Shown: positions 7,505 to 43,786 of the stretch, piece after piece
Position numbering within the stretch: the stretch's first letter is position 1
Layout: the number at the start of each line of letters is the position of its first letter
NCBI GenBank assembly: GCA_013151645.1
Contig: JAADHU010000013.1
Span: 1-64,000, forward strand
Length of the DNA: 64,000 nt
DNA from: Gammaproteobacteria bacterium
GTDB taxonomy: Bacteria > Pseudomonadota > Gammaproteobacteria > Steroidobacterales > Woeseiaceae
Reading direction: 5' to 3'
The notes under the pieces: generated by a model
Told to the model about the DNA's origin: nothing
The model's input: the letters and a program-made list of their open reading frames with translations, nothing else
Databases searched by the model: none
Translations under genes and position numbers: made by a program

Positions 7505-8077
7505 GTGACTATTAATCTATTGCAACTGTGGTTACCAATCGTCGTCGGTGCCGGTCTGGCCTGGATAGCAAGTGCGCTTATTCACATCTTAATCAAACAT
7601 CACCAATCCGATTATCAATCGTTGTCGAACGAAGCAGAAGTGATGTCCGCTGTGCGGAGTGGTTCACCAAGTCCCGGCATGCACACGTTTCCGTATTGCA
7701 GTGATATGGCGGAAATGGGCAAAGCGGATGTACAGGAGAAATTCAATCGGGGTCCGGTCGGAATGCTCACGGTATTGCCGAACGGTATGCCGAATATGGG
7801 CAAGCTGATGGCTCAACAGATATCGTTTTTTCTGCTGGGCTGTATCCTGATCGCGTACAGCGCGACGCTTGTCCTGGCGCCGGGTGCCGAGTATCGGGTG
7901 GTGTTTCGATTCGTCGCGACGGTGGGTTTCCTGACGTTCGGCTGGGCCGTCATACCGTACAGTATCTGGTTCGGACACCAATGGTCGATGACCGCAAAAT
8001 ACCTGCTGGACGCGTTGATCTACGGTCTGGTTGTAGCCGGTTCATTTGCCTGGTTATGGCCCTCATTGACGCCATAG
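7505..8077 (+). CDS. Uncharacterised four-helix membrane protein
   Basis: 190 residues from a GTG start with CAGGGAGAA upstream. Helices lie at about 7-30, 103-125, 132-152 and 163-187. Between the first two is a soluble stretch of about 70 residues containing MHTFPYCSDMAEMG and a Met/Pro/Gly-rich GPVGMLTVLPNGMPNMGK. I cannot name a function. It is followed on the same strand by an HPP-family protein, and the pair may share a transcript (gap 119 bases). It is divergent from arsR, but nothing in the protein points to metal handling beyond its several Met, Cys and His residues. Confidence 0.75.
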   Translation: MTINLLQLWLPIVVGAGLAWIASALIHILIKHHQSDYQSLSNEAEVMSAVRSGSPSPGMHTFPYCSDMAEMGKADVQEKFNRGPVGMLTVLPNGMPNMGKLMAQQISFFLLGCILIAYSATLVLAPGAEYRVVFRFVATVGFLTFGWAVIPYSIWFGHQWSMTAKYLLDALIYGLVVAGSFAWLWPSLTP

Positions 8078-8196
8078 TCAGAGCGCATTACTGTCTTTGC
8101 CGGGGCCGTCTGCCGGCATCGTAGCCGCTTCGCAGACCGGGCGGTCAGCCAATCCGACGATGAGTCGGTCAAATACATTCGTTCCAGGGAGCGTGC

Positions 8197-8913
8197 ATGA
8201 GCTTGCATGGGTTTTTCAATTTAGTCGGCTTTAGCCGCCACACTGCCAACTATCCTGAAAAACTAATTTCGGCTGCCGGCGGCTTTCTCGGAATTTTCGG
8301 CATCCTGATGGTCAGCCAATGGTGGCTTGATCCCAGGACGGCGGTGATGATTGTGCCCTCGATGGGCGCAAGCGCTGTCCTGCTTTTCGCCGCGCCTCAT
8401 GCGCCTTTTTCACAACCCTGGAACGTGATCGGCGGACATGGCTTGTCGGCAATCGTCGGTATCGCCTGCTGGCAATGGATTCCTGATCTGACCGTGGCGG
8501 CCTCTGCCAGCGTCGGTCTGTCTATTGGCATCATGTATTTCGCCCGTTGTATTCATCCGCCGGGCGGCGCGACTGCACTCGCGGCCGTGATCGGTTCGCA
8601 GCAACTGCATGATCTGGGCTACACCTACGGCTACGCACCCATATTGCTGAATGCCGTGACCATACTGCTGATTGGTATCGTATTTAACGGCCTGTTTCAC
8701 TGGCGCCGTTATCCGGCAGGCCTGCATGTCCGGAAAAAGGAAGCTCAGTCGAAAGATTCGGGCGGGAACCGGGGATATGCGCCAATCAAGCACGAAGATT
8801 TCGTGTACGCCCTGAGCCAGATTGATACCTTCGTCGATATAACCGAGGAGGACCTGCTGGCGATTTACGAGTTGGCAACCCAACGACGCGTGGAAACCGT
8901 CGGCGCGCCGTAG
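8197..8913 (+). CDS. HPP family integral membrane protein
   Basis: 238 residues preceded by a GGGAG site. Four to five membrane helices fill residues about 25-170. The defining motif is CIHPPGGATALAAVIG at about 122-137, with a preceding PSMGASAVLLFAAPHAPFSQPWNVIGGH. These match the HPP family (Pfam PF04982), members of which have been linked to nitrite or anion transport in plastids and cyanobacteria; the bacterial substrate here is unknown. The cytosolic C-terminal tail of about 65 residues (DFVYALSQIDTFVDITEEDLLAIYELA) lies outside the membrane core. Confidence 0.85.
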   Translation: MSLHGFFNLVGFSRHTANYPEKLISAAGGFLGIFGILMVSQWWLDPRTAVMIVPSMGASAVLLFAAPHAPFSQPWNVIGGHGLSAIVGIACWQWIPDLTVAASASVGLSIGIMYFARCIHPPGGATALAAVIGSQQLHDLGYTYGYAPILLNAVTILLIGIVFNGLFHWRRYPAGLHVRKKEAQSKDSGGNRGYAPIKHEDFVYALSQIDTFVDITEEDLLAIYELATQRRVETVGAP

Positions 8914-19269: not shown

Positions 19270-19372
19270 GGTCCGCGTTGGCTTCCCCGCGACGATTAGC
19301 CGTGAACCCCGTCAGGCCCGGAAGGGAGCAGCGGCAGCGGTGAAGGGTGCCGGGGAGTAGCTGGCGCGGACC
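19270..19372 (+). ncRNA. ffs: Signal recognition particle 4.5S RNA
   Basis: About 103 nt. The universally conserved Ffh-binding loop is present (GTCAGGCCCGGAAGGGAGCAG around 19311-19331), followed by the matching strand with GGTGCCGGGGAGTAGCTGGC. The ends pair perfectly: GGTCCGCG at 19270-19277 with CGCGGACC at 19365-19372, and ACTTTTC follows the closing stem. It forms the SRP with Ffh for co-translational targeting of membrane proteins. The gene lies immediately upstream of dnaX, an arrangement common in Gammaproteobacteria. Confidence 0.95.
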
Positions 19373-31134: not shown

Positions 31135-33252
31135 TCAGGGCTTAACCTGAGCGGTTTGTGCCGGACGTATGTTGTCCTGACGCTGTTCAATCACCATATC
31201 GGTCACAATTGCGGCGGCCTGGTCAAGTTGCACATCGGGTAGATCTTCATCGTCCAGGTCTTCAATGGTTTCAACAGGTTCGAGGCCAAGCGAGACCCGG
31301 CGTTCATTTTCCCGTTGCAGTCTTCGGGCCGTGTCAGACTTGCGTTCTTCCTGCCTGACGTCGAAGTTCAGGGACACTGTCTTGCGCAACCGCGATTCTT
31401 CAATTTCCTGAATACCGTCCACCAGGAACTTGAAATCAGGATCCGATTTCGTGCGTGCAATATAGTTGCTGGTCAGCGTCGCGATCGTACTATCCAATGC
31501 TTCTCCCGCCGTGAATTTAGTGGTTCGGATCGTATCCCACGGCAGGGCGGATTCGCGCACACTCTCACCGACAGTCGCCGCATCAATCTGCGAGGGCAGC
31601 TCAATGTCGGGGTTGACACCACGATGCTGCGTGCTTTCGCCGGTCACCCGATAATACTTGCCGATCGTCAACGTCAGCTGGCCGAGGCCGTCGGCCTCCG
31701 GGCGCCGTACATATTGATCCAGGGAATAAAGGTTTTGCACGGTGCCTTTGCCGAACGTTTGTTGGCCGATAATCAATCCACGCGCGTAGTCCTGGATAGC
31801 GGCGGCGAATATTTCCGATGCCGAGGCGCTGTAACGATTGACCAAAACGGCCAACGGCCCGTTGTAGGCAACGCGTGGCACAGGGTCCGGGTCGTCGAGC
31901 CGGCTAATTCGCCCGTTGGCATTTCGCAGTTGCACGACCGGACCATTGTCGATGAACAATCCTGACAAAGCGGTCGCTTCCGTCAGGTGCCCGCCGCCGT
32001 TGTTGCGCAGATCCAGGACCAGGCCGTCGATGCCTTGCTCCTCGAGTTCCTCAATCAGGCGTTTTACGTCTTTGGTCGTGCTCGTGTAATTCTTGTCGCC
32101 GTTGCTGAGCGCTCGATAGTCCCGATAGAAGCTGGGAACGTCGATGACGCCGATGTTCCAGTCACGCCCATCGCGCGGTACGGTGACGATTTCACTTTTG
32201 GCGGCCTGCTCCTCAAGTTTGACCTGGTTGCGAGTCAGGCTGATGACCTTTTCGGGCGCGCCGGGTAGAGCTCCCTCAGGCATTATCTGCAACCGCACCA
32301 CGGACTCCGCGGGACCACGAATGAGCTGCACAACATCGTCCAGTCGCCAGCCGATAACGTCGACAAGCTCCTCATCCCCTTGCGCGACGGCGGTGATGCG
32401 GTCTTTCGGCTGCAATTCTCCGTCGATTGCGGCGGGACCACCCGGAATGATGTTGACGACCAGTACGTAATCATCGTCTGTCTGCAATGAGGCACCGATG
32501 CCAAAATACGAAAGGCTCATTGCAATTCGGTATTCTTCTGAATTTCGTGGCGACAGGTAGCTCGAGTGTGGATCCAGCGTATGTGCAAACGCATTCATGA
32601 AGGTTTCGAATACGTCGTCATTCTTGAGCTGATCCATACGTTTCAGGAATCGCAAATAACGTTTGCTCAGGACTTCCTGCACGCCTTCCCAGTCTTTGTC
32701 GGCCAGCGTGAGGTTCAAGGCGTCATTCTTCACGCGTTTGCGCCATATTTCGTCGAGTTCTTCGGTGGTCTCTGCCCAGTCCATTTCCGAACGGTCGAAC
32801 TTGAAGTCTTCGTCGAGCGAAAAGTCGGGCTCCGTATCCAGTTGCTTCAAGGCGTAGTTCAGCCGTTCCCGGGCGCGAGTGCGGTAGACCTCGAACATGT
32901 CGAAAACCGGTTCGAGCGATTCGGGGCCCACCATGTCATCCAGCTTGTCGCGGTAGGCATCGAACGCCTTGATATCGCTGGTTAGAAAATACATGCGGTT
33001 ACTGTCCAGCGACTTGATATAATTGTCGAGTACTAGCGAAGATAAGTCGTCGTCGACCTCAGCATGCCGATAGTGGGATTTCTGAATAAATTCCTTCACC
33101 AACTGGCCGATTTTTTCGTGCCGAGGTTGCGGTGCGAAATCCTGAGAATCCATCGGGGATTCCGTCGTCGCCAGTGCCGAAAGGGCGGCGGCGGCCAGCA
33201 ATACAGCGGTGGCTGTCGTAAGGATGCCCGTTACACGGTTATTCAAACTCAT
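31135..33252 (-). CDS. prc: Tail-specific periplasmic protease
   Basis: 705 residues. A signal peptide (ILTTATAVLLAAAALSALA) leads into an N-terminal helical domain, a PDZ domain at about 240-330 (GIGASLQTDDDYVLVVNIIPGGPAAIDGELQPKDRI) and an S41 protease core. The catalytic Ser477 lies in YSASASEIFAAAIQDYARG and Lys502 in FGKGTVQNLY, the same 25-residue spacing as E. coli Ser452/Lys477. A C-terminal DUF3340 helical region follows. It degrades SsrA-tagged and misfolded periplasmic proteins and trims lipoproteins or peptidoglycan hydrolases. A regulatory partner such as NlpI is not encoded here. Confidence 0.95.
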   Translation of the reverse strand: MSLNNRVTGILTTATAVLLAAAALSALATTESPMDSQDFAPQPRHEKIGQLVKEFIQKSHYRHAEVDDDLSSLVLDNYIKSLDSNRMYFLTSDIKAFDAYRDKLDDMVGPESLEPVFDMFEVYRTRARERLNYALKQLDTEPDFSLDEDFKFDRSEMDWAETTEELDEIWRKRVKNDALNLTLADKDWEGVQEVLSKRYLRFLKRMDQLKNDDVFETFMNAFAHTLDPHSSYLSPRNSEEYRIAMSLSYFGIGASLQTDDDYVLVVNIIPGGPAAIDGELQPKDRITAVAQGDEELVDVIGWRLDDVVQLIRGPAESVVRLQIMPEGALPGAPEKVISLTRNQVKLEEQAAKSEIVTVPRDGRDWNIGVIDVPSFYRDYRALSNGDKNYTSTTKDVKRLIEELEEQGIDGLVLDLRNNGGGHLTEATALSGLFIDNGPVVQLRNANGRISRLDDPDPVPRVAYNGPLAVLVNRYSASASEIFAAAIQDYARGLIIGQQTFGKGTVQNLYSLDQYVRRPEADGLGQLTLTIGKYYRVTGESTQHRGVNPDIELPSQIDAATVGESVRESALPWDTIRTTKFTAGEALDSTIATLTSNYIARTKSDPDFKFLVDGIQEIEESRLRKTVSLNFDVRQEERKSDTARRLQRENERRVSLGLEPVETIEDLDDEDLPDVQLDQAAAIVTDMVIEQRQDNIRPAQTAQVKP

Positions 33253-33712: not shown

Positions 33713-34282
33713 TCAGAAGAGCCGCATGGACGGTTTGCCCGAGCTCTTGCCGTCGCGGCGCTTGCGGCGCCGCCGCATTCTTTCCTGAAGCTCGTTACGA
33801 CGCCCGGACAGCCAGTCGTCACGCGTAATATCCGTTGTTTTCATCTTGACGCCGGCGCGTGGCTCCATGCGCTCGCGAAAATCGCAGAAATCCCGGTAGG
33901 CCTCGATTTCGTGGCGCAGTTCGCGAACCACCAGTTCGATCATGATGGCATCGTCAAGAAAGCCCAAAGCGGGTATGTGGTCCGGGATAAGGTCTTCAGG
34001 CTCGCTGAAATAGGCCAGCGCACTGAGTACGCGCGATGTTTCCAGGTCGGGCAGGCGCCACTCGTGATCCTTTAACATACGGATCAAGAATTGCAGCCGC
34101 TCCAGCCGATCGCGGACAAACCGCGGAATACGGGCCGATTCGACGTCGACCAGCAGTTTCTCAGCCGCCGCAACAATATCTTCGGGCCAGGCATGGCTGG
34201 TGTTTTTTCGTGCCTGCTGCATGATCAGGCGAAAGTGTTGCAGGTCATCTTCATCCAGGTTGAATGAAATTCTGAGACTCAA
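33713..34282 (-). CDS. DUF1232 domain protein
   Basis: 189 residues from a TTG preceded by GGAG. Residues about 85-125 carry the DUF1232 motif (LSALAYFSEPEDLIPDHIPALGFLDDAIMIELVV), preceded by a helical region. The tail is very basic (ERMRRRRKRRDGK), suggesting contact with nucleic acid or acidic lipids. DUF1232 occurs in YkvA-type proteins of unknown function that often sit near membranes. It is the last gene of a minus-strand run that includes the FHA and AAA+ genes. Confidence 0.8.
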   Translation of the reverse strand: MSLRISFNLDEDDLQHFRLIMQQARKNTSHAWPEDIVAAAEKLLVDVESARIPRFVRDRLERLQFLIRMLKDHEWRLPDLETSRVLSALAYFSEPEDLIPDHIPALGFLDDAIMIELVVRELRHEIEAYRDFCDFRERMEPRAGVKMKTTDITRDDWLSGRRNELQERMRRRRKRRDGKSSGKPSMRLF

Positions 34283-34402
34283 AACCCTGCTCCTGCCAAG
34301 CCGTTAGGCGATGCAGACTACCGTTGCCTCGGAGGCTCGTCAATTTGAGATTTCGCAGCGTGGTGAGCTTGATGGACCGGCCGGACGCCCGACCCGCCGG
34401 CA

Positions 34403-34771
34403 TCACTTGCCGGTTCGTGAGTTCCAGTTTTGAGAACGATCGAAACGGCCGGTATTGTACGGATCGAAACCCGCTTCTTCACCGGTCTCAATGACCGATT
34501 CGTCGATGATCTTCAGTGCATCATGGGTACCCGTGTTCTCGCGCACGTATTTGTTACGTATGAGAACATTCTTACCGGGTCCGCCATCTTCGATACGACC
34601 CTGCAACTCGGTGTCGAGAACGGCAGTACGCGGTTTGGCCGTTTTGCCGGGCGGCCGATGCGGCGGCCCTAAGTGGCTCCTGGATTTCGGACGAATACCG
34701 GTGAGACGCTGCCTGGGCTCCGGCTTCTTTGGAAATAATTTCATTCCCAGCCATTTTAGAAAGCGTTGCAT
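34403..34771 (-). CDS. Hypothetical basic protein
   Basis: 122 residues if started at MQRFLKWLGMKLFPKKPEP. The N-terminus is an amphipathic basic helix; the middle is rich in Pro, Arg and Lys and likely disordered, and the C-terminal half (NVLIRNKYVRENTGTHDALKIIDESVIETGEEAGFDPYNTGRFDRSQNW) is acidic and polar. A C-terminal GFDPYNTG motif is reminiscent of short conserved tails but not identifiable. It lies on the same strand as its neighbours. It may be real; no homologue is recognised. Confidence 0.5.
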   Translation of the reverse strand: MQRFLKWLGMKLFPKKPEPRQRLTGIRPKSRSHLGPPHRPPGKTAKPRTAVLDTELQGRIEDGGPGKNVLIRNKYVRENTGTHDALKIIDESVIETGEEAGFDPYNTGRFDRSQNWNSRTGK

Positions 34772-34940
34772 CAATTTCGTCCAGCAGTCGTCAGGGTGAT
34801 GGGCAGTACTACAACGTCGTTGCACTGCACGTTAAGCATGTTTCATGCATCATCCATTTTGTACGAACGAGGAGGTTTTTTCCTGTCGATTTCAGGGAAC
34901 TGTGAACCATGTCACGGTATCCGGCGCGTCGTAATAACGT

Positions 34941-35246
34941 CTAACGTGATCGCGTTGTTGTGGTCGGCGCACCGTGCCGAAAGAGCCATATCGTGGCGCG
35001 GAGTCCCTGCCAACCCAGGTATGGCGACAAAACGAGAAACCAGACAACACCATCGCCGGAGGGAAGGCCGCGATATATTTGTTCGAAAAAGCCGGTGAGC
35101 CCCGATCCGCCATAATTTCCAAAGACCAGCTGGCCGACAACGTAAATGGCGATGGGCAAGAGGATCAGACCGACCAGTAGCAACGTAACAAAGATCAACG
35201 CTTCACGCGCTGCGGGTTTTTCAAGAATAGAGCGGGATGCAGTCAT
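34941..35246 (-). CDS. Small two-helix membrane protein
   Basis: 101 residues with helices at about 17-40 (ALIFVTLLLVGLILLPIAIYVVGQLVF) and 66-90 (GVVWFLVLSPYLGWQGLRATIWLF) and a GNYGGSGLTGFFEQIYRGLPSGDG loop between. This is a plausible inner-membrane protein. It lies on the same strand as the FHA/AAA+ genes and the other small membrane genes. Function is unknown. Confidence 0.6.
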   Translation of the reverse strand: MTASRSILEKPAAREALIFVTLLLVGLILLPIAIYVVGQLVFGNYGGSGLTGFFEQIYRGLPSGDGVVWFLVLSPYLGWQGLRATIWLFRHGAPTTTTRSR

Positions 35247-35340
35247 GCCTGGCTGGCCAGTTGCGTCAGATGGTGCAATCCTTGAACAAGCGGAGCGCTA
35301 CGTCAAGATCGAATCCCGAAAATGATCTCGCTCGGGCGAT

Positions 35341-35631
35341 TCAGGTCGATGAATCCTTCTCGCGGCGACGTCGCCGCTTGCCCATTATTGCAAAGGCAAG
35401 ATGGCAGACGGCTGCCGAGAACAGCAGGTAGTGCGGTAAGACCCAAAACCAGTCACTGATGTACAAAGTCGCGAAAAAAGCGGCGAAGCCGGCGGTCAGG
35501 TAAAAATAGGGTAGGGCGTCATACACTATTTTGGGGAGCCAGATCTTGCGCGTGAGCAGGGCGCTGGCCTTGTGGCTCACATCCTGTGTTGCACTGAGAT
35601 CCATTCCTTTGGAATCTGCTTTCGATATCAT
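35341..35631 (-). CDS. Small two-helix membrane protein
   Basis: 96 residues. A polar N-terminus is followed by helices at about 40-60 (PYFYLTAGFAAFFATLYISDWF) and 65-83 (LPHYLLFSAAVCHLAFAIMG), ending in a very basic KRRRRREK tail on the presumed cytosolic side. A second in-frame ATG lies nine codons in. It is 192 bases downstream of the FHA gene, on the same strand; function is unknown. Confidence 0.6.
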   Translation of the reverse strand: MISKADSKGMDLSATQDVSHKASALLTRKIWLPKIVYDALPYFYLTAGFAAFFATLYISDWFWVLPHYLLFSAAVCHLAFAIMGKRRRRREKDSST

Positions 35632-35823
35632 CGTCTTCTGCGCGCCGCGGTTTTTTACAATTCACCGCTACGATAACCTGCCACGCAGAAAGATTCCGTG
35701 ATTGCTCTCACACAACGATTGATGATCCCATGGCGGTCGCTGGAATCGCCCGGATTGTGCTGGCTGAGAGAACTCTCGATAGCCCGCAAGAGTAGCGCAG
35801 CACCGATCGACAAAGACGTCGGT

Positions 35824-37620
35824 TTAGCGTTTCGGGCGTTCTTCGAAGACGAATTCTGCGGTGCCAATGGCAACTTTGTCACCGCTTCGCAGCCGCTGTT
35901 CGGAAACTCGTACACCGTTTACGGCAACGCCATTCTTGCTGCCCCAGTCGATGATGCGTGAGCCACTCTCGTCACTGATGACGACGGCATGCCTGCGGCT
36001 GATGTACTGAGCATTCAATTGAATATCATTCTGCTGAGTTCGACCAATAGTGAGCCGTTCCTTAAATAACGGAAACTGCAGCTCCTGTCCGCCGATTCTT
36101 CCAGTCAGGAGTCGAGTCGGCCGGTCGCGATCCTGGCTGCCACGCTCATCGATGCGTTCGGACATTTTTCCGTCGATTTCATGAATGACGTTGCCGATAT
36201 CACCGATGGACTCCATCGCCTGACTCTTACTTGCGAGTTCGCTGAGCAATGCGGAAATGGCCGCATCTTTTGTCGCAATCTTGTGTTCACGATCTTCCAG
36301 TTGTTTCTCCAGCCGCCGGCCTTGCTTTTCCAGTCGAGATGTCGTGGCTTTGTGTTTTTCATCAGCGTCACTCAATTGAGTTTCGAGCGCCAGACGGTAA
36401 TGTGTGTTGTCGATCAGGTCGGACGCCAACTCCTCATTGACCGATTCATAGTCGCCGATGGTTTGCTGCGCCGCACCCAGTTCAAAACGAATAAGTTTGG
36501 CCTCTTTCTCAAAGTCTTTCTTGATATCGGTCATAGCCGATTCAAGATCGGCCTTGAGCAAACGTTCTGCATCCAGTTGCTCTTGTAACTCGCGCAACTG
36601 GTCGGTCGCCTGGCGTAGCGAGGCAGCAAGTTGCTGTCGCTCGGTGTCCGTTTGAGTCGATGCGATATCCAGTGTCCGCAGACTATCTCTGAGCCCGTCG
36701 GCGTATTGTTCGGACCGCGCAATCTGATTCTTCAGGTCGGTCAACTCATCGTTGTTGCTTACAAGGCGTCCTGATTGTTCGGCAAGACGATGTTCGACAT
36801 TGAACTGGGCATTGTTCTGGTAGTCATCAATGTCCTGAATCAGTGCCCGGTTTTTCTCGCGCAGTTTTCTGCAGCGCGCTTGCTCCTTTTCAAATTTCGA
36901 CTGCAGCCGTTCGATACGGGCTGCCTCGTTCTCGATCGTTTTTTCGCTGACCAGGAGTTCCGATTCAAGCTTTGTGACGGTGGCGTCCTTGCCGCTGAGT
37001 GACACTTTGAAGCCTTCAATTTCCTCGTGGAGTCGCACCCAGTCGTTCTGGCGTCCGTCGATATAAGTCTTGAGTTCGGATACGGTAAGGCGTGCTCGCT
37101 CGAGTTGCTCTCGCAAAGAGTCGGCACTATCGCCTTCGGTATTCGTACGCTCGAATTTCGCCTCGGCTATTTCCGCGCCCGCTCTTGAAGGTTCAGGTAC
37201 GTTACCTTGTTCAAGTTCGGTAATCCTGGAGTTCAGAGATTCGATTTCACGTTCTTGCCGTCGGACCAGTTTGTTTCGCGTAGATCGCTCTTTGTGCGCT
37301 TCACGAAGATCTTGCTGCAGAATCTTGGTCAGTTCCTCACGAGTCTCGATTTCCTTTTCGAGGCCGGTCCAGCGAGCGCGCAATTGCTCCGCGTCAAACT
37401 GAAGTTTGCCTATGCGCTCGTTGCGTGACCGTAAATCCGATCGAAGGCTATCTACTGACTGGCCGTCAGGACTATCGTCATCGAAGGCATAGGTGCTTGC
37501 ATCTGCTTCGTATTCAATGTCAGGGCGCGGCGAATTTGCTTCGATAATCGCCAATTCCGATGTTGTATCATCGTCTGTACAAGCATCGACTGTATTTTTA
37601 TTTTTATTATCAATAGCCAT
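35824..37620 (-). CDS. Coiled-coil protein with C-terminal FHA domain
   Basis: 598 residues. Residues about 55-480 are an almost continuous coiled coil (RSDLRSRNERIGKLQFDAEQ and ELEQ/LEKE repeats). The FHA domain occupies about 507-598: GR at 526-527 in LTIGRTQQNDI, SRRH at 541-544, and WGSKNG ending at Gly564, so the phosphothreonine-binding residues are intact. No kinase is fused or adjacent. The AAA+ gene lies 177 bases upstream on the same strand. A scaffold that binds a phosphorylated partner is inferred; there is no signal peptide, so it is cytosolic. The start is the only ATG before the acidic low-complexity head. Confidence 0.85.
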   Translation of the reverse strand: MAIDNKNKNTVDACTDDDTTSELAIIEANSPRPDIEYEADASTYAFDDDSPDGQSVDSLRSDLRSRNERIGKLQFDAEQLRARWTGLEKEIETREELTKILQQDLREAHKERSTRNKLVRRQEREIESLNSRITELEQGNVPEPSRAGAEIAEAKFERTNTEGDSADSLREQLERARLTVSELKTYIDGRQNDWVRLHEEIEGFKVSLSGKDATVTKLESELLVSEKTIENEAARIERLQSKFEKEQARCRKLREKNRALIQDIDDYQNNAQFNVEHRLAEQSGRLVSNNDELTDLKNQIARSEQYADGLRDSLRTLDIASTQTDTERQQLAASLRQATDQLRELQEQLDAERLLKADLESAMTDIKKDFEKEAKLIRFELGAAQQTIGDYESVNEELASDLIDNTHYRLALETQLSDADEKHKATTSRLEKQGRRLEKQLEDREHKIATKDAAISALLSELASKSQAMESIGDIGNVIHEIDGKMSERIDERGSQDRDRPTRLLTGRIGGQELQFPLFKERLTIGRTQQNDIQLNAQYISRRHAVVISDESGSRIIDWGSKNGVAVNGVRVSEQRLRSGDKVAIGTAEFVFEERPKR

Positions 37621-37797
37621 AAAAACAGTTTAGCACGGGACGCCGTACCGAATGCGGTTTGCAGCGATGCCCTCACGCGTTGTTTGCGTTCGCTTCTCAG
37701 CGCAGGTATTAGGTTAAATCGGTGTCGCGTATTTGATGCACGGGTGTTTCATTTCACGCGAATGCTATTCGCTCATCAAACCGGGTTTGTTGGATTA

Positions 37798-39288
37798 TTA
37801 GTCACACGGAACCGTGCGTTCAGACGCCCAACTTCGTAGTGCGACGATACGTTCCTTCATGACGACCGACAGCGGTCGCGTGCGTTGGCTTTCGGCGACG
37901 ATATGTTCCGTTGTAAGTGATTTTTGTTGTGCCTGGGCGGCGTAAAGTGCCGACACGATTACCTGCTCGATTTCCGCTCCGGAGAAGCCACGCGTCGCAA
38001 TCGCAAGTTTGTCGAGATCGAAGTTGTCGGCATCTTGTCGGCGCTTCGCCAGGTGAATGCCGAAAATGCTCTTGCGTACGCCGGACCTGGGCAGATCAAC
38101 GAAGAATATTTCATCGAATCGACCTTTGCGAACCAGTTCAGGTGGCAGCGACGTAATGTCATTCGCTGTGGCCACAACGAAGACCTTGCTGTTTTTTTCT
38201 GCCATCCAGGTAAGAAAATTACCCAGAATTCGCTGCGTGGTCCCCGTTTCACCGCCGCGGCCTGCGAGTCCTTTTTCGATTTCATCAATCCACAGCACGC
38301 ACGGTGCCATGATATCGGCCGTACTTAGCGATTCGCGCAGATTGCGTTCCGTTTCGCCATGATACTTGTCATAAATCGCGCTGAAATCCAGGCGCAGAAT
38401 CGGCACGCCGAGTATGCCTGCCGTCGCCTTCGCCGCAAGACTCTTGCCACAACCCTGAACACCGATCAGCAATACACCTTTGGGTGTATCAAGAACGTCG
38501 TTGCTGCCGGACGTGCGGAACGCGGTTTTTCGATGAGAAAGCCATTGCTTCAATTTTTTCAGTCCACCGATATCGCTGAATTTCGCAGTGTCGTATTCAA
38601 AATGGAGAATGCCGGCCTTGTTCAGCAGATCGTATTTCGCCTGCATCACACCTGGCAGGTCGCTGCTGGAAATAGCACCGTCATTGTAAATTGCATTGCG
38701 CGCCAATTGCTCTGTGGCGCCATGGGTGAGTCCCGCCAGGTTCTGTACCAGCATTCCGTAGGCCTTGGGGTCGAACTGGACGACCGTCCCCGGGTGCTGA
38801 TCGGCATATTCGGCCGACACGCGCTTCACGATGTCACCGCGTTCTCTTGCCGATGGCAAGGTCATCTCAAAACGTGCGCAAAAGCTCTCGAGTTCGGTCG
38901 GTAACTCGACACGGTGACTGACCATGATCAATTGCCGCGATACGCGCTCATAGCGAATACAAATATCCTTTAACAGCCGAACATTGACCGGGTTTTCCAG
39001 GTAGGGATGGAAGTCCAGCAGGATGTAAACACCCGCTTTGGTCACTGCACGAATATGCCGTAGAACATCGTCCGGATCGGAATTGTGCATTTGGGGTTCA
39101 AGCGAAATATCGAGTCGCTGCAGCCCATCGGTGACGGTCCAGCGGAATAACGGGAGGTAGTCACCTTTCGTCCGGCCAACCGTTATCGATGTGATCATTT
39201 CGAGAACGCGCGATTCGTCTCGCGTTTCGATGATGACGATCGGTGTTCGTGACTGCAAAACCAGTTCGAGATCGCGTTGCGAATCCAT
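37798..39288 (-). CDS. Ycf46-like AAA+ ATPase
   Basis: 496 residues. The N-terminal 230 residues resemble the Ycf46-type domain ([33 protein letters not shown]), a degenerate ATPase-like fold. The AAA+ core follows: [15 protein letters not shown], Walker A GVQGCGKS at 276-283, Walker B VLWIDE at 331-336, sensor 1 ATAND at 373-377, candidate Arg fingers in RKGRFDEIF. It lies 14 bases after the metallopeptidase gene on the same strand, so the two should share a transcript. In cyanobacteria Ycf46 relates to carbon or light responses; here the role is unknown. Confidence 0.88.
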
Positions 39289-39302
39289 TCTGTGAGAATT
39301 CC

Positions 39303-40607
39303 TTATTCGGCGCAGCCGGGCAAATTGTCCGGGTCAAGCGCGGCGGGCAGCGAGCCGGTCAGTCGTTTGGCGGCATTCCGGAGGCTCTGGATTGTTATTG
39401 TGGTGTTACTTGTTATCAGATTAGCGACCAGGTCGTCCAGGCTGTAGTCCACGTTCCCATCATCGTCTTGTCTGAGTTCGGTGTCGAGCGCGAAGAAAAT
39501 CGCGGTAGCACGAGCGGTGGTGGCCCCGGTTGACTGTTTTTGACACAAATCGACGACCTGTTCCCCCCACTCTTGCAGTTGCTTGATCGCTTTGGCGTGC
39601 CGGCGTCTGCTGATGGTGTGACTTCGTCGCAGCAATTCCAGACCATAATATTCTGCGAGGCCCTCGACGATCCAGTCGGCGTCGTCATCCGCCCGCAGAG
39701 CAAGCCCGACGTGCATTATTTCGTGCAACAGCGTGCTCGTGCCGTTTTCGCTGATGAGTGGCATATTGGCATGGATGAACAGCGATTTCGGTGCGGACAG
39801 GCCACCTCGCCACATGGGATCAGCGGCGCTGAATATCGTCAGGCGGCGTGGAAAATCAGGCAAAATGCGGCGAATTTCCGGCAGGGTCCAGTGCAGCAGG
39901 GCCAGCATGTCCAGTCGACGTACCGAGTGGCCCACGGGCCCGGCAACCACGACGCGAATCCCGTCGATATCGTCGTTGCGTTCACCCAGTTTGCCCAGGA
40001 GCATCCAGCCGGTCGGCTGATCAAAGCGGCGCGCGGGGTTTTCGATACGATAGTCGTTTTTTCGACCAAAATATTGCGTCGTCGATGACCAGTCCTGCGG
40101 CAAAGCGAATTCAAGACGAGTGACACTGGTGGCTCCTTTCAGTGTTCGAGTGCGCGCCGCGGGGATGATGTCTTCGCCGCGAAACAGTGCCCATGAGTCG
40201 CTCATGTAAGCGTCGTAGGTATCTCCCGAACGTACGTGGTTTACCGCGACGAACCATCGCAATACGCCCCCTTCGGCGGGCGGCTGCCACACCAGTCGAT
40301 TGCCGTGCCGACTCAGCTCACCGTCTGCAGTAACGCGACTAACGTCAACACCGCTCAGGCGCATATCCAATTCTCGCAACAGGCGTCGTGATTGACGAAG
40401 CGTCAGTTCAACCACCACGCCCTGCTGCTCGGGTTTCGGGGTTACTTTATAGTCCACGTAATAAAGCAAAGAGCGATCAAGCGTCGTCCTGGTGAGATCA
40501 GAGGCGGGCGCGTCACACGCGGACAGGACCACAAGGGCCGCGGCCACCCCTATTGCCATGACGTGGCGGTGAATGTTTCTTAGTGCCGCGTGCCGGTATT
40601 CACCCAT
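39303..40607 (-). CDS. Lipoprotein-type gluzincin metallopeptidase
   Basis: 434 residues from the ATG at 40607, one of several candidate starts (40667, 40625, 40559). The lipobox VLSAC follows a hydrophobic segment (AIGVAAALVV), giving an outer-membrane or inner-membrane lipoprotein. HEIMH at about 295-299 with the third ligand Glu in WIVEGLAEYYG at about 315 is the HExxH...E gluzincin pattern, closest in style to M61 glycyl aminopeptidases. The N-terminal 250 residues are beta-rich. It is divergent from the NlpC/P60 lipoprotein gene and precedes the AAA+ gene. The natural substrate is unknown. Confidence 0.75.
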   Translation of the reverse strand: MGEYRHAALRNIHRHVMAIGVAAALVVLSACDAPASDLTRTTLDRSLLYYVDYKVTPKPEQQGVVVELTLRQSRRLLRELDMRLSGVDVSRVTADGELSRHGNRLVWQPPAEGGVLRWFVAVNHVRSGDTYDAYMSDSWALFRGEDIIPAARTRTLKGATSVTRLEFALPQDWSSTTQYFGRKNDYRIENPARRFDQPTGWMLLGKLGERNDDIDGIRVVVAGPVGHSVRRLDMLALLHWTLPEIRRILPDFPRRLTIFSAADPMWRGGLSAPKSLFIHANMPLISENGTSTLLHEIMHVGLALRADDDADWIVEGLAEYYGLELLRRSHTISRRRHAKAIKQLQEWGEQVVDLCQKQSTGATTARATAIFFALDTELRQDDDGNVDYSLDDLVANLITSNTTITIQSLRNAAKRLTGSLPAALDPDNLPGCAE

Positions 40608-40684
40608 TCCCGGGATGCAGTTCATGGCTTGAAGGGTCTCATAGCGGTATCTTGTTCGGTATCCCACAGACCGGAGTGGCGCCT

Positions 40685-41209
40685 ATGTTATCCCAGACAG
40701 TCCGAAATCACTGCATCGCGAGTATTGCCGTGATCCTGATGGTGAGCGGCTGTTCGGGTCAGCCGTCGAGAACGACGGCCTCGGCGGTGCCGCAGGCTGT
40801 TCCGGCGCCGATGCCCGTTCCGGCGCATCGAGGTGCTCGCCGTACACTGGCTCAATCCGCCGCCATAACAGCGACACGCCAAGTCGGTGTTCCTTATCAG
40901 TACGGTGGCAGCACGACCCGCGGATTCGACTGCAGTGGCCTCATTAGTTATGCCTATGCCACGGCGGGCAAGGCCATGCCGCGCACGACTTCAGGGTTGT
41001 GGCGTGAATTGAAGCCGGTTGACGCCAACAATCTGCAAGTCGGTGACGTGCTGTTTTTCAGCATTGAGGGCAAGATGTCGCATGTGGGGCTTTATCTTGG
41101 CGACCGCCGCTTTGTGCACGCTCCGTCCAGCGGAAAAACGGTTACCGTCGGGAGCCTTGATTCAGGTTTTTATCGTCGCGCCCTGATTCGCGGTGGACGC
41201 CCTCGTTAG
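40685..41209 (+). CDS. NlpC/P60 endopeptidase lipoprotein
   Basis: 174 residues from MLSQTVRNHCIASIAVILMVSGC; the lipobox cysteine follows VSG. After a Pro/Ala linker, the C40 domain spans about 60-174: catalytic Cys in GFDCSGLISYAYATAG, His in MSHVGLYLGDRRF and the polar third residue in FVHAPSSGKTVTV. VGVPYQYGGSTTRG precedes the nucleophile as in Spr/MepS. It cleaves peptidoglycan stem peptides from the outer-membrane face. It is divergent from the lipoprotein metallopeptidase. Confidence 0.92.
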   Translation: MLSQTVRNHCIASIAVILMVSGCSGQPSRTTASAVPQAVPAPMPVPAHRGARRTLAQSAAITATRQVGVPYQYGGSTTRGFDCSGLISYAYATAGKAMPRTTSGLWRELKPVDANNLQVGDVLFFSIEGKMSHVGLYLGDRRFVHAPSSGKTVTVGSLDSGFYRRALIRGGRPR

Positions 41210-42766: not shown

Positions 42767-43786
42767 CTAGCCTTGCCAATACAGGGGCTCTTCGTCGATG
42801 AGTGCTGCCTGTTCGCGCAATGTCAGGATATGTTCATCCCAATAGCGCGGTAAATTGAACCAGGGAAAGGCTGTTTTGAACGCAGGATCGTCCCACCGGC
42901 GTGCAATCCAGGCCGCATAATGCATGATTCTCAGCGTTCTGAGTGCTTCGATCAGGTGCAATTCGCGGGCATCGAACGAGCGAAATTCCTGATAGCCGTC
43001 GAGCAGGTTGTTCAGTTGCGGGGCTTGTTCGTGCCGGTCGCCCGAAAGAAACATCCAAAGGTCCTGAACGGCCGGGCCCGTGCGCGCATCGTCAAAATCG
43101 ACGATATGCAGCTGTAACTCGTTGACCAGCACGTTACCGGGATGAAAATCGCCGTGCAGACGAATCTGTCGAACGTTGCCCGCGCGGTCAAAACTCGCTT
43201 CGATGCTGTCGAACAAATGCTGTGTGATACCGCTGTACACCTCTTCGAGTTCCGGCGGAATGAATTCGTGTTCGAGCAGGAATTCCTGGGATTCGTAGCC
43301 GAATCCTTCCAGGTCAATGGTCGGGCGATGTTGGAAGTCCGTTGTTTCGCCGTGCAGGTGAATACGAGCAATCAGCCGACCGATCTGGCGCTGCAAATCG
43401 GCATTGTCAAGATCCGGGGCGCGGCCGCCGTGGCAAGGCGATACCGACAAGCGAAACGGCCCGTAGCGATGCAGCGTTTCTCCGTCGATCGGCAATGGTG
43501 GAACCACCGGAATATCGCTCGCCGCCAACTCTTCCGTAAATCGATGTTCTTCCTGGATCGCCGCATCGCTCCAGCGGCCCGGACGGTAAAACTTCGCGAC
43601 CACGGCCGCCTCGTCCTCGATACCGATCTGATAAACGCGGTTTTCGTAACTGTTAAGCGCAAGGAAGCGACCATTGCAACGAAATCCGAGCCCTTCCAGG
43701 GCGGCCAGAATGTCATCGGGTTGCAGCGCCGCATAGGCATGCGTTGATGCGTCTTCCTCTGTCGAGACCGAATTCATGCGTTCCAT
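42767..43786 (-). CDS. srkA: Stress response kinase SrkA (YihE)
   Basis: 339 residues, close to the E. coli length. An APH-like kinase fold: LALNSYENRVYQIG nucleotide-binding loop, catalytic loop LHGDFHPGNVLV, metal-binding VDFDDARTGPAVQDLWMFLSGD. The N-terminal segment before DILAALEGLGFRC may be non-native: the ATG at 43786 or the second Met at residue 4 could start translation. SrkA in E. coli counters the MazF/Cpx stress death pathway and phosphorylates Ser/Thr. It is followed by typA upstream on the same strand (20-base gap). Confidence 0.93.
   Translation of the reverse strand: MERMNSVSTEEDASTHAYAALQPDDILAALEGLGFRCNGRFLALNSYENRVYQIGIEDEAAVVAKFYRPGRWSDAAIQEEHRFTEELAASDIPVVPPLPIDGETLHRYGPFRLSVSPCHGGRAPDLDNADLQRQIGRLIARIHLHGETTDFQHRPTIDLEGFGYESQEFLLEHEFIPPELEEVYSGITQHLFDSIEASFDRAGNVRQIRLHGDFHPGNVLVNELQLHIVDFDDARTGPAVQDLWMFLSGDRHEQAPQLNNLLDGYQEFRSFDARELHLIEALRTLRIMHYAAWIARRWDDPAFKTAFPWFNLPRYWDEHILTLREQAALIDEEPLYWQG

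Follow-up and report, generated by a model that had tools for sequence, protein, structure and literature searches.

A window of 64,000 nucleotides was analysed (contig C34 of a 3.96-Mb gammaproteobacterial assembly, 98% complete, in 83 contigs), in which seven intact open reading frames (ORFs) follow one another on the minus strand from 40607 to 33713, as the preliminary description of this DNA had reported: a lipoprotein, a Ycf46-like AAA+ ATPase (AAA in the following), a protein with an FHA domain, three short proteins (s1, s2 and s3) and a DUF1232 protein. As judged from its sequence, the FHA protein appears to carry the self-recognition pattern of GarA, OdhI, DgcB and TIFA, here split by a long coiled coil, an arrangement newly recognised in this work. 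The combination of its N-terminal motif with its FHA domain seems the best mechanistic lead, and we tentatively read the core of the cluster as a phosphothreonine-switched coiled-coil scaffold with AAA as an accessory remodeller, a reading that we hold possible though short of probable.

By the AAA gene, the closest named relatives are largely bins of Woeseiaceae, a family of marine Gammaproteobacteria. A literature search, which covered subscription journals only partly, found no paper on this cluster. The three alignments used (A1, A2 and A3, with 25, 29 and 20 rows) were hand-chosen from 59, 40 and 43 loci, plus the window, that a script had marked as complete, a few of these loci being fragments; for loci beyond the window the gene starts were set by script, and some rows are near-identical (e.g. 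L072 and L108). Many of the genomes are metagenome bins, and some of the G-numbered ones may repeat named records.

The FHA protein and its acidic N-terminal motif

The FHA domain is recognised by Pfam (PF00498, E 2.2e-17), and its key binding residues are kept in 42-43 of 44 sequences (GR...[ND]DI in 42, SR[RQ]HA in 43 and GS[KR]NG in 42). The long coiled coil of 400 residues, which like the domain had been noted before, is also borne out: over residues 61-480 the mean share of hydrophobic residues at heptad positions a and d is 0.649, above the maximum of 0.576 reached in 200 shuffles. Orthologues range from 384 to 696 amino acids (aa) in length, and the length of the coil varies.

Within the first 25 residues an acidic T-x-x-L or T-x-x-M motif is present in all 44 sequences (T-x-x-L in 43, T-x-x-M in L056), 43 of them found by script and that of L060 by reading the same ORF further upstream; these rows are related and some are near-identical. 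In 500 shuffles the motif turned up in 13.9 of the 44 on average and never in more than 22. Thr20 is conserved in at least 90% of the alignment and Leu23 in 100%, with a mean column identity of 33% for the FHA protein; a second threonine, residue 43 of the window protein, also reaches at least 90%. Such a motif occurs within the first 75 residues of one of the nine other FHA proteins of the genome, two of these nine ORFs being weak-match picks. It counts against the scaffold reading that the motif is short and the tail acidic in general, for which the shuffles control only in part.

The phosphothreonine (pThr) partner of the FHA domain may be the FHA protein itself, unlike the separate partner envisaged earlier. 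The FHA domain of DgcB binds its own N-terminal pThr, with stress laid on the residue at +3 and with GarA, OdhI and TIFA as mechanistic relatives, as far as the accessible text of PMC6733907 goes, and TIFA assembles head to tail through pThr9 (excerpts of PMC7083832). Should the FHA domain indeed bind the tail motif, pThr self-recognition would extend to a long coiled-coil protein in Gammaproteobacteria. To our knowledge, little is known of the targets of Hanks kinases in this class outside type VI secretion.

Tail motif and FHA domain would also fit a closed switch of the GarA/OdhI type, in which the pThr tail is bound by the FHA domain within one dimer, through a bent or antiparallel coil, and stops the binding of a client such as s3. 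GarA and OdhI are among the closest solved structures to the FHA domain of L099, and s3 has a conserved Thr-rich motif. Nevertheless, tail and domain are separated by a long coiled coil, which GarA and OdhI are not known to have, and the s3 motif persists in two loci without the cluster FHA gene (L103, L032) but is lost in two that have it (L099, L100). As the s3 motif and this gene do not track each other, s3 was rejected as the FHA ligand; the closed switch as a whole we judge unlikely.

That the cluster lacks a kinase, as stated before, is true of the seven genes and not of their surroundings: an SrkA-type kinase is encoded nearby (NF008738, 463.6 bits, cut-off 194), and 17 Pkinase (Hanks kinase) matches in the genome exceed the cut-off. 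SrkA belongs to the block in 40 of 62 loci and was rejected as a dedicated kinase on the grounds that it was not found in L099 and L100, both of which have FHA. Elsewhere in the same genome (G000), a Hanks kinase domain lies close to an FHA domain at C35:37855-39844 and at C59:7324-8459.

Conservation of gene order and separate loss of AAA and FHA

Among the 62 loci, orthologues were found of the lipoprotein in 45, FHA in 44, s1 in 43, s2 in 45, s3 in 43 and DUF1232 in 40; AAA, the query, is in all 62, and the scan that yielded L029-L080 was run with AAA, which is therefore present in all of these by design. The same seven-gene order recurs in Woeseiaceae. It had been suggested that the grouping would lose its meaning if the genes were not adjacent in relatives or if AAA and FHA never co-occurred. 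Neither proved to be the case: AAA is followed by FHA in 38 of the 52 fetched loci, and both genes are present in 19 of 37 family genomes, in one of which both are interrupted. In two of the 52 loci (L032, L043) s1 directly follows AAA with no FHA gene between them, three (L038, L069, L075) are cut by a contig end, and nine are distant (46-65% identity, 36% for L079) and have no FHA match. AAA and FHA are still neighbours in another family (L099, L100), despite different surrounding genes.

The first two genes are indeed 14 bases apart in the window (39289-39302); in relatives this gap has a median of 8 bases, with both quartiles at 8 (n=37). Because the gap is 8 bases in most loci, lipoprotein and AAA are likely cotranscribed as a dicistron. 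AAA adjoins FHA upstream with a median gap of about 76 bases (70-83 in most loci), and FHA is separated from s1 by about 98 (median); the remaining cluster genes may be cotranscribed as well.

Three results weaken the case for one machine. Collinearity with G006 and G009 of the same family runs from about 14-16 kb to 45-52 kb of the window, and G032 is partly collinear, with less contig covered. In G037 and G052, which belong to another family, and in G007, a deep member of the same one, 4, 3 and 5 of the seven cluster genes are present, compared with 13, 16 and 17 of 18 other genes from 19.5-42.6 kb. The comparison is one-sided, since a short gene escapes detection more easily, and in G037 two of those not detected fall at the border of the stretch examined. 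The adjacency of AAA and FHA sits inside a long collinear block, and in the deeper relatives that this block reaches the cluster is kept no better than its neighbours, so that gene order is no special sign of joint function and synteny is weakened as proof of it.

AAA and FHA are also lost separately. Among the 37 family genomes, 22 have an AAA match, three having AAA without FHA (G005, G006, G007; G005 is 82% complete and its AAA is cut at a contig end), three FHA without AAA (G008, G027, G033) and 12 neither, eight of these 12 being small genomes of one genus; the absence of FHA was judged with the window FHA protein as query. FHA is gone and AAA kept in G006 (a single contig), in G007 and in the genomes of L032 and L043. 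Conversely, FHA is kept beside remnants of AAA in G008 (locus L233, two short fragments at about 7959-8245) and in G027 (one fragment); the lipoprotein is also kept in both, and in L233 it and FHA look intact around the AAA fragments. G033 gave no match for lipoprotein, AAA or s1 and one for FHA in its second half only, and G011 retains the lipoprotein, s1, s2, s3 and DUF1232 without AAA and FHA. A quick Prc tree of 43 labelled rows (no bootstrap; long branches for L102, L236, L238 and L240) implies four changes for FHA and three for AAA. Outside the family, no FHA match lay within about 6 kb of AAA in any of 17 class genomes examined, a subset of the 32 with an AAA match, which weakens the reading as one machine.

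These data would fit a reading with no shared machine, the seven genes being mostly independent and their order kept by slow rearrangement of this chromosome stretch in the group: collinearity extends well past the seven genes in G006, G009 and G032 and over the 18 other genes of the span in G037, G052 and G007, AAA, FHA and the lipoprotein are lost separately, and FHA is missing from the surroundings of AAA in the 17 genomes outside the family. The 8-base spacing in most loci, suggestive of a dicistron, and the persistence of AAA and FHA as neighbours in L099 and L100 speak against it. In favour of the scaffold reading with its AAA link is G035 (L020), where the AAA gene has an in-frame TGA and TAA and the FHA gene is matched partly in one frame and partly in another, the decay of both being what a linked pair would show. 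We consider independence of the genes a serious explanation, second to the scaffold, if a somewhat doubtful one. AAA and FHA are associated as a pair, yet neither gene requires the other. As for the envelope or signalling machine of the preliminary description, signalling gains from the conserved motif of the FHA protein, whereas the single machine loses through the collinear block and the separate losses, and the case for the envelope consists solely of the lipoprotein and neighbouring genes.

The ATPase, the lipoprotein and the other genes

AAA is an intact ATPase, as described before (PF00004, E 4.8e-30): G276, G279, G281, K282 and S283 of Walker A and D335 and E336 of Walker B are invariant in 25 of 25 rows, as are the sensor 1 Asn and the GR[FL]D finger except for the Phe of GRFD, features that place it among the classical AAA ATPases (Cdc48/FtsH/Vps4 clade). 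Its profile finds the second AAA module of p97/Cdc48 as best match, and a structure model (pLDDT 85.0, a predicted local confidence score) aligns with p97 (7lmz_C) over residues 1-492 (Z 27.1, root-mean-square deviation (rmsd) 5.2, 455 aligned). Both modules of the model align with D1-D2 of p97, from which the protein differs by a first module without Walker A in its sequence, the lack of an N domain and an identity of about 20%. On this model AAA has the two-module shape of p97, its first module being degenerate, a feature newly recognised here. In module 2 all catalytic residues are retained, together with an aromatic pore-loop sequence, KYHGETE, which we take to resemble the pore loops of substrate-threading AAA proteins.

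Such a loop would suit an adaptor function in which the FHA domain reads the pThr of another protein, made by SrkA or a Hanks kinase, and delivers it to AAA as unfoldase. The presence of SrkA in the block in 40 of 62 loci agrees with this, but in L099 and L100, where FHA is kept, no SrkA was found, and AAA persists without FHA; we think an adaptor very unlikely.

Homologues of AAA occur in 34 of 184 class genomes and, at full length and about 37% identity, on plasmids of Treponema and cyanobacteria. As to the likeness to Ycf46/Slr0374 of cyanobacteria, a cyanobacterial plasmid homologue of AAA is 36.7% identical over 99% of the query and stands beside DUF1257, presumably Ycf35, and DUF2997, neighbours that differ from those of the cluster AAA; the comparison covers plasmid homologues. 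A role of Ycf46 in carbon fixation is reported in the accessible portion of PMC7496141. On a Pseudanabaena plasmid (L241, 2720-6527) a homologue lies beside genes for DUF1257, DUF2997, GrpE and Hsp70. In three of the 17 class genomes outside the family coq7 lies near AAA, and by reading it is also beside it in L067, L071 and L080. An anti-phage role as IetA was rejected (NF042959, 73.4 bits, cut-off 510), the PADLOC and NCBIfam IetA matches covering the shared AAA module alone.

The zinc site of the lipoprotein is intact, as previously noted: H295, E296, H299 and E315 are invariant in 29 of 29 rows, with E315 as the inferred third ligand. Its score for M61 (PF05299, E 0.0075, 17.1 bits) lies below the cut-off of 22, so that membership by Pfam was rejected, and a sequence search of its profile against solved structures gave no match at E 1. 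The model (pLDDT 87.8) has the M1/M61 fold (4fgm: Z 26.9, rmsd 3.3, 363 aligned), and this fold, HExxH and a downstream Glu place the protein among the gluzincins. It shares fold and zinc site with M1 and M61 aminopeptidases and differs from them in having no PDZ domain and in the sequence GGLSAP, invariant at five of its six positions, which stands 27 residues ahead of the first zinc His, the spacing expected for the GxMEN motif of M1 enzymes. That GGLSAP accompanies the M1/M61 fold and an intact zinc site is likewise newly recognised here. If this spacing holds, the lipoprotein is probably neither an aminopeptidase nor able to recognise a free N terminus. The surface location proposed along with the zinc site is doubtful: in the window protein the lipid Cys is followed by Asp, which in E. 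coli signals retention in the inner membrane, and on our reading of the alignment three of 29 rows lack Cys at that column.

Three short, poorly known genes had been listed, and s1, s2 and s3 indeed match no Pfam family over cut-off; because orthologues exist in 43, 45 and 43 of the 62 loci they are genes and not chance ORFs. The DUF1232 assignment agrees with Pfam (PF06803, E 5.6e-10, 39.2 bits, cut-off 23); paralogues lie at C28:116553-117092 and C74:27914-28444 of the same genome (G000), the former near a protein ending in GFDPYNSR, like the DPYNTG motif of s3. A Dps-like protein, identified by eye, lies between s3 and DUF1232 or the Prc end in L099 (14274-14741) and L102 (6539-7051).

Coordinates of the cluster genes, their motifs and nearby genes in the window
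Feature	Position	Strand	Evidence
Zinc metallopeptidase-like lipoprotein of M1/M61 fold, 434 aa, with signal peptide and with Cys within LSAC	39303..40607	-	alignment, structure model, fold match 4fgm
HEIMH zinc motif, residues 295-299, third ligand presumed E315	39711..39725	-	invariant in 29/29 rows
Ycf46-like AAA+ ATPase, 496 aa; degenerate AAA module (about 1-222), then active AAA module	37798..39288	-	Pfam, alignment, p97 fold match
Walker A GVQGCGKS, residues 276-283 of AAA	38440..38463	-	alignment
FHA protein, 598 aa; coiled coil between a short acidic tail (N-terminal) and the FHA domain (C-terminal)	35824..37620	-	Pfam, alignment, heptad analysis
Conserved acidic T-x-x-L motif DDDTTSELA (Thr20, Leu23) of the FHA protein	37549..37575	-	T-x-x-L or T-x-x-M in 44/44 sequences
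FHA domain, residues 524-586; canonical Arg, Ser-Arg-x-His and Asn-Gly residues	35863..36051	-	Pfam, alignment
Short gene s1, 96 aa; a single clear hydrophobic segment; 16 aligned rows share 21 invariant residues	35341..35631	-	alignment
Short gene s2, 101 aa, N-terminal half hydrophobic	34941..35246	-	alignment
Short gene s3, start ATG at 34771, 122 aa; motifs GTHxxLKI and DPYNTGxF conserved, hydrophobic segment absent	34403..34771	-	alignment
DUF1232 protein, 189 aa, TTG start, two paralogues elsewhere in genome	33713..34282	-	Pfam, alignment
Context: SrkA-type serine/threonine kinase (APH fold)	42767..43786	-	NF008738
Context: NlpC/P60 lipoprotein-like hydrolase	40583..41209	+	family match
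Context: Prc-type tail-specific protease	31135..33252	-	family match

The cluster is flanked on the opposite strand by the NlpC/P60 gene at one end and a small membrane gene at the other; farther out come SrkA with two short lipoprotein-like genes at the one end, and Prc at the other. NlpC/P60 beside Prc is a weak candidate for an analogue of NlpI-Prc-MepS (NF008096, 63.3 bits, cut-off 186). Rfam finds in the window a signal recognition particle RNA alone (small type, RF00169, 63.9 bits, 19276-19369), and neither the 15 terminator-like sites (shuffles 10.0, standard deviation 3.0) nor the three promoter-like sites (shuffles 4.5) are informative.

Proposed mechanism and comparison with known systems

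In the scaffold that we tentatively prefer, a Hanks-type kinase encoded elsewhere in the genome would phosphorylate Thr20 in the acidic tail of the FHA protein, and the FHA domain at the opposite end of the molecule would bind pThr20 with Leu at +3. With a coiled coil of 300-400 residues between the tail and the domain, head-to-tail contacts from one molecule to the next, as in TIFA, would be likelier than closure within one chain, and phosphorylation would assemble rods or chains of FHA protein at the inner membrane or close to it. AAA, the two-module neighbour, would be an accessory remodeller pulling apart the scaffold or a client, any contact between AAA and the FHA protein being what we infer here, and the lipoprotein peptidase, co-expressed with AAA, would act independently in the periplasm. 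On this reading two further proteins, a widespread two-module AAA and an unusual lipoprotein with the M1/M61 fold, would have separate roles open to test. A bolder form, in which we place little confidence, is a kinase-driven cytoskeleton-like system, where filaments lying under the envelope would form by head-to-tail polymerisation of the FHA protein once its tail is phosphorylated, to be taken apart by the two-ring AAA encoded next to it. If true, it would concern one of the most abundant bacterial groups of marine sediments, where Woeseiales account for 1-22% of retrieved 16S sequences (from the available text of PMC7082342).

The PpkA-Fha-ClpV pathway of the type VI secretion system (T6SS), as outlined in partial sources, likewise brings together in a single bacterium Hanks kinases, an AAA protein and a protein with an FHA domain, but the cluster AAA is not ClpV-like. 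A T6SS reading is rejected or weak; no T6SS gene is among the identified window genes, and no search of the genome aimed at T6SS was made. DgcB of Bdellovibrio and the actinobacterial GarA and OdhI likewise combine in one chain an FHA domain and an N-terminal Thr with a hydrophobic residue at +3 (PMC6733907, accessible text). Unlike in these proteins, the FHA domain of the cluster protein is C-terminal, behind a coiled coil of 300-400 residues and with no catalytic domain; any self-binding is putative. TIFA, of animal innate immunity, also joins an acidic N-terminal pThr tail to an FHA domain, and head-to-tail assembly of the cluster protein would follow the same principle (PMC7083832, excerpts); TIFA is, unlike the cluster FHA protein, a short globular dimer, and the likeness is drawn at the level of principle.

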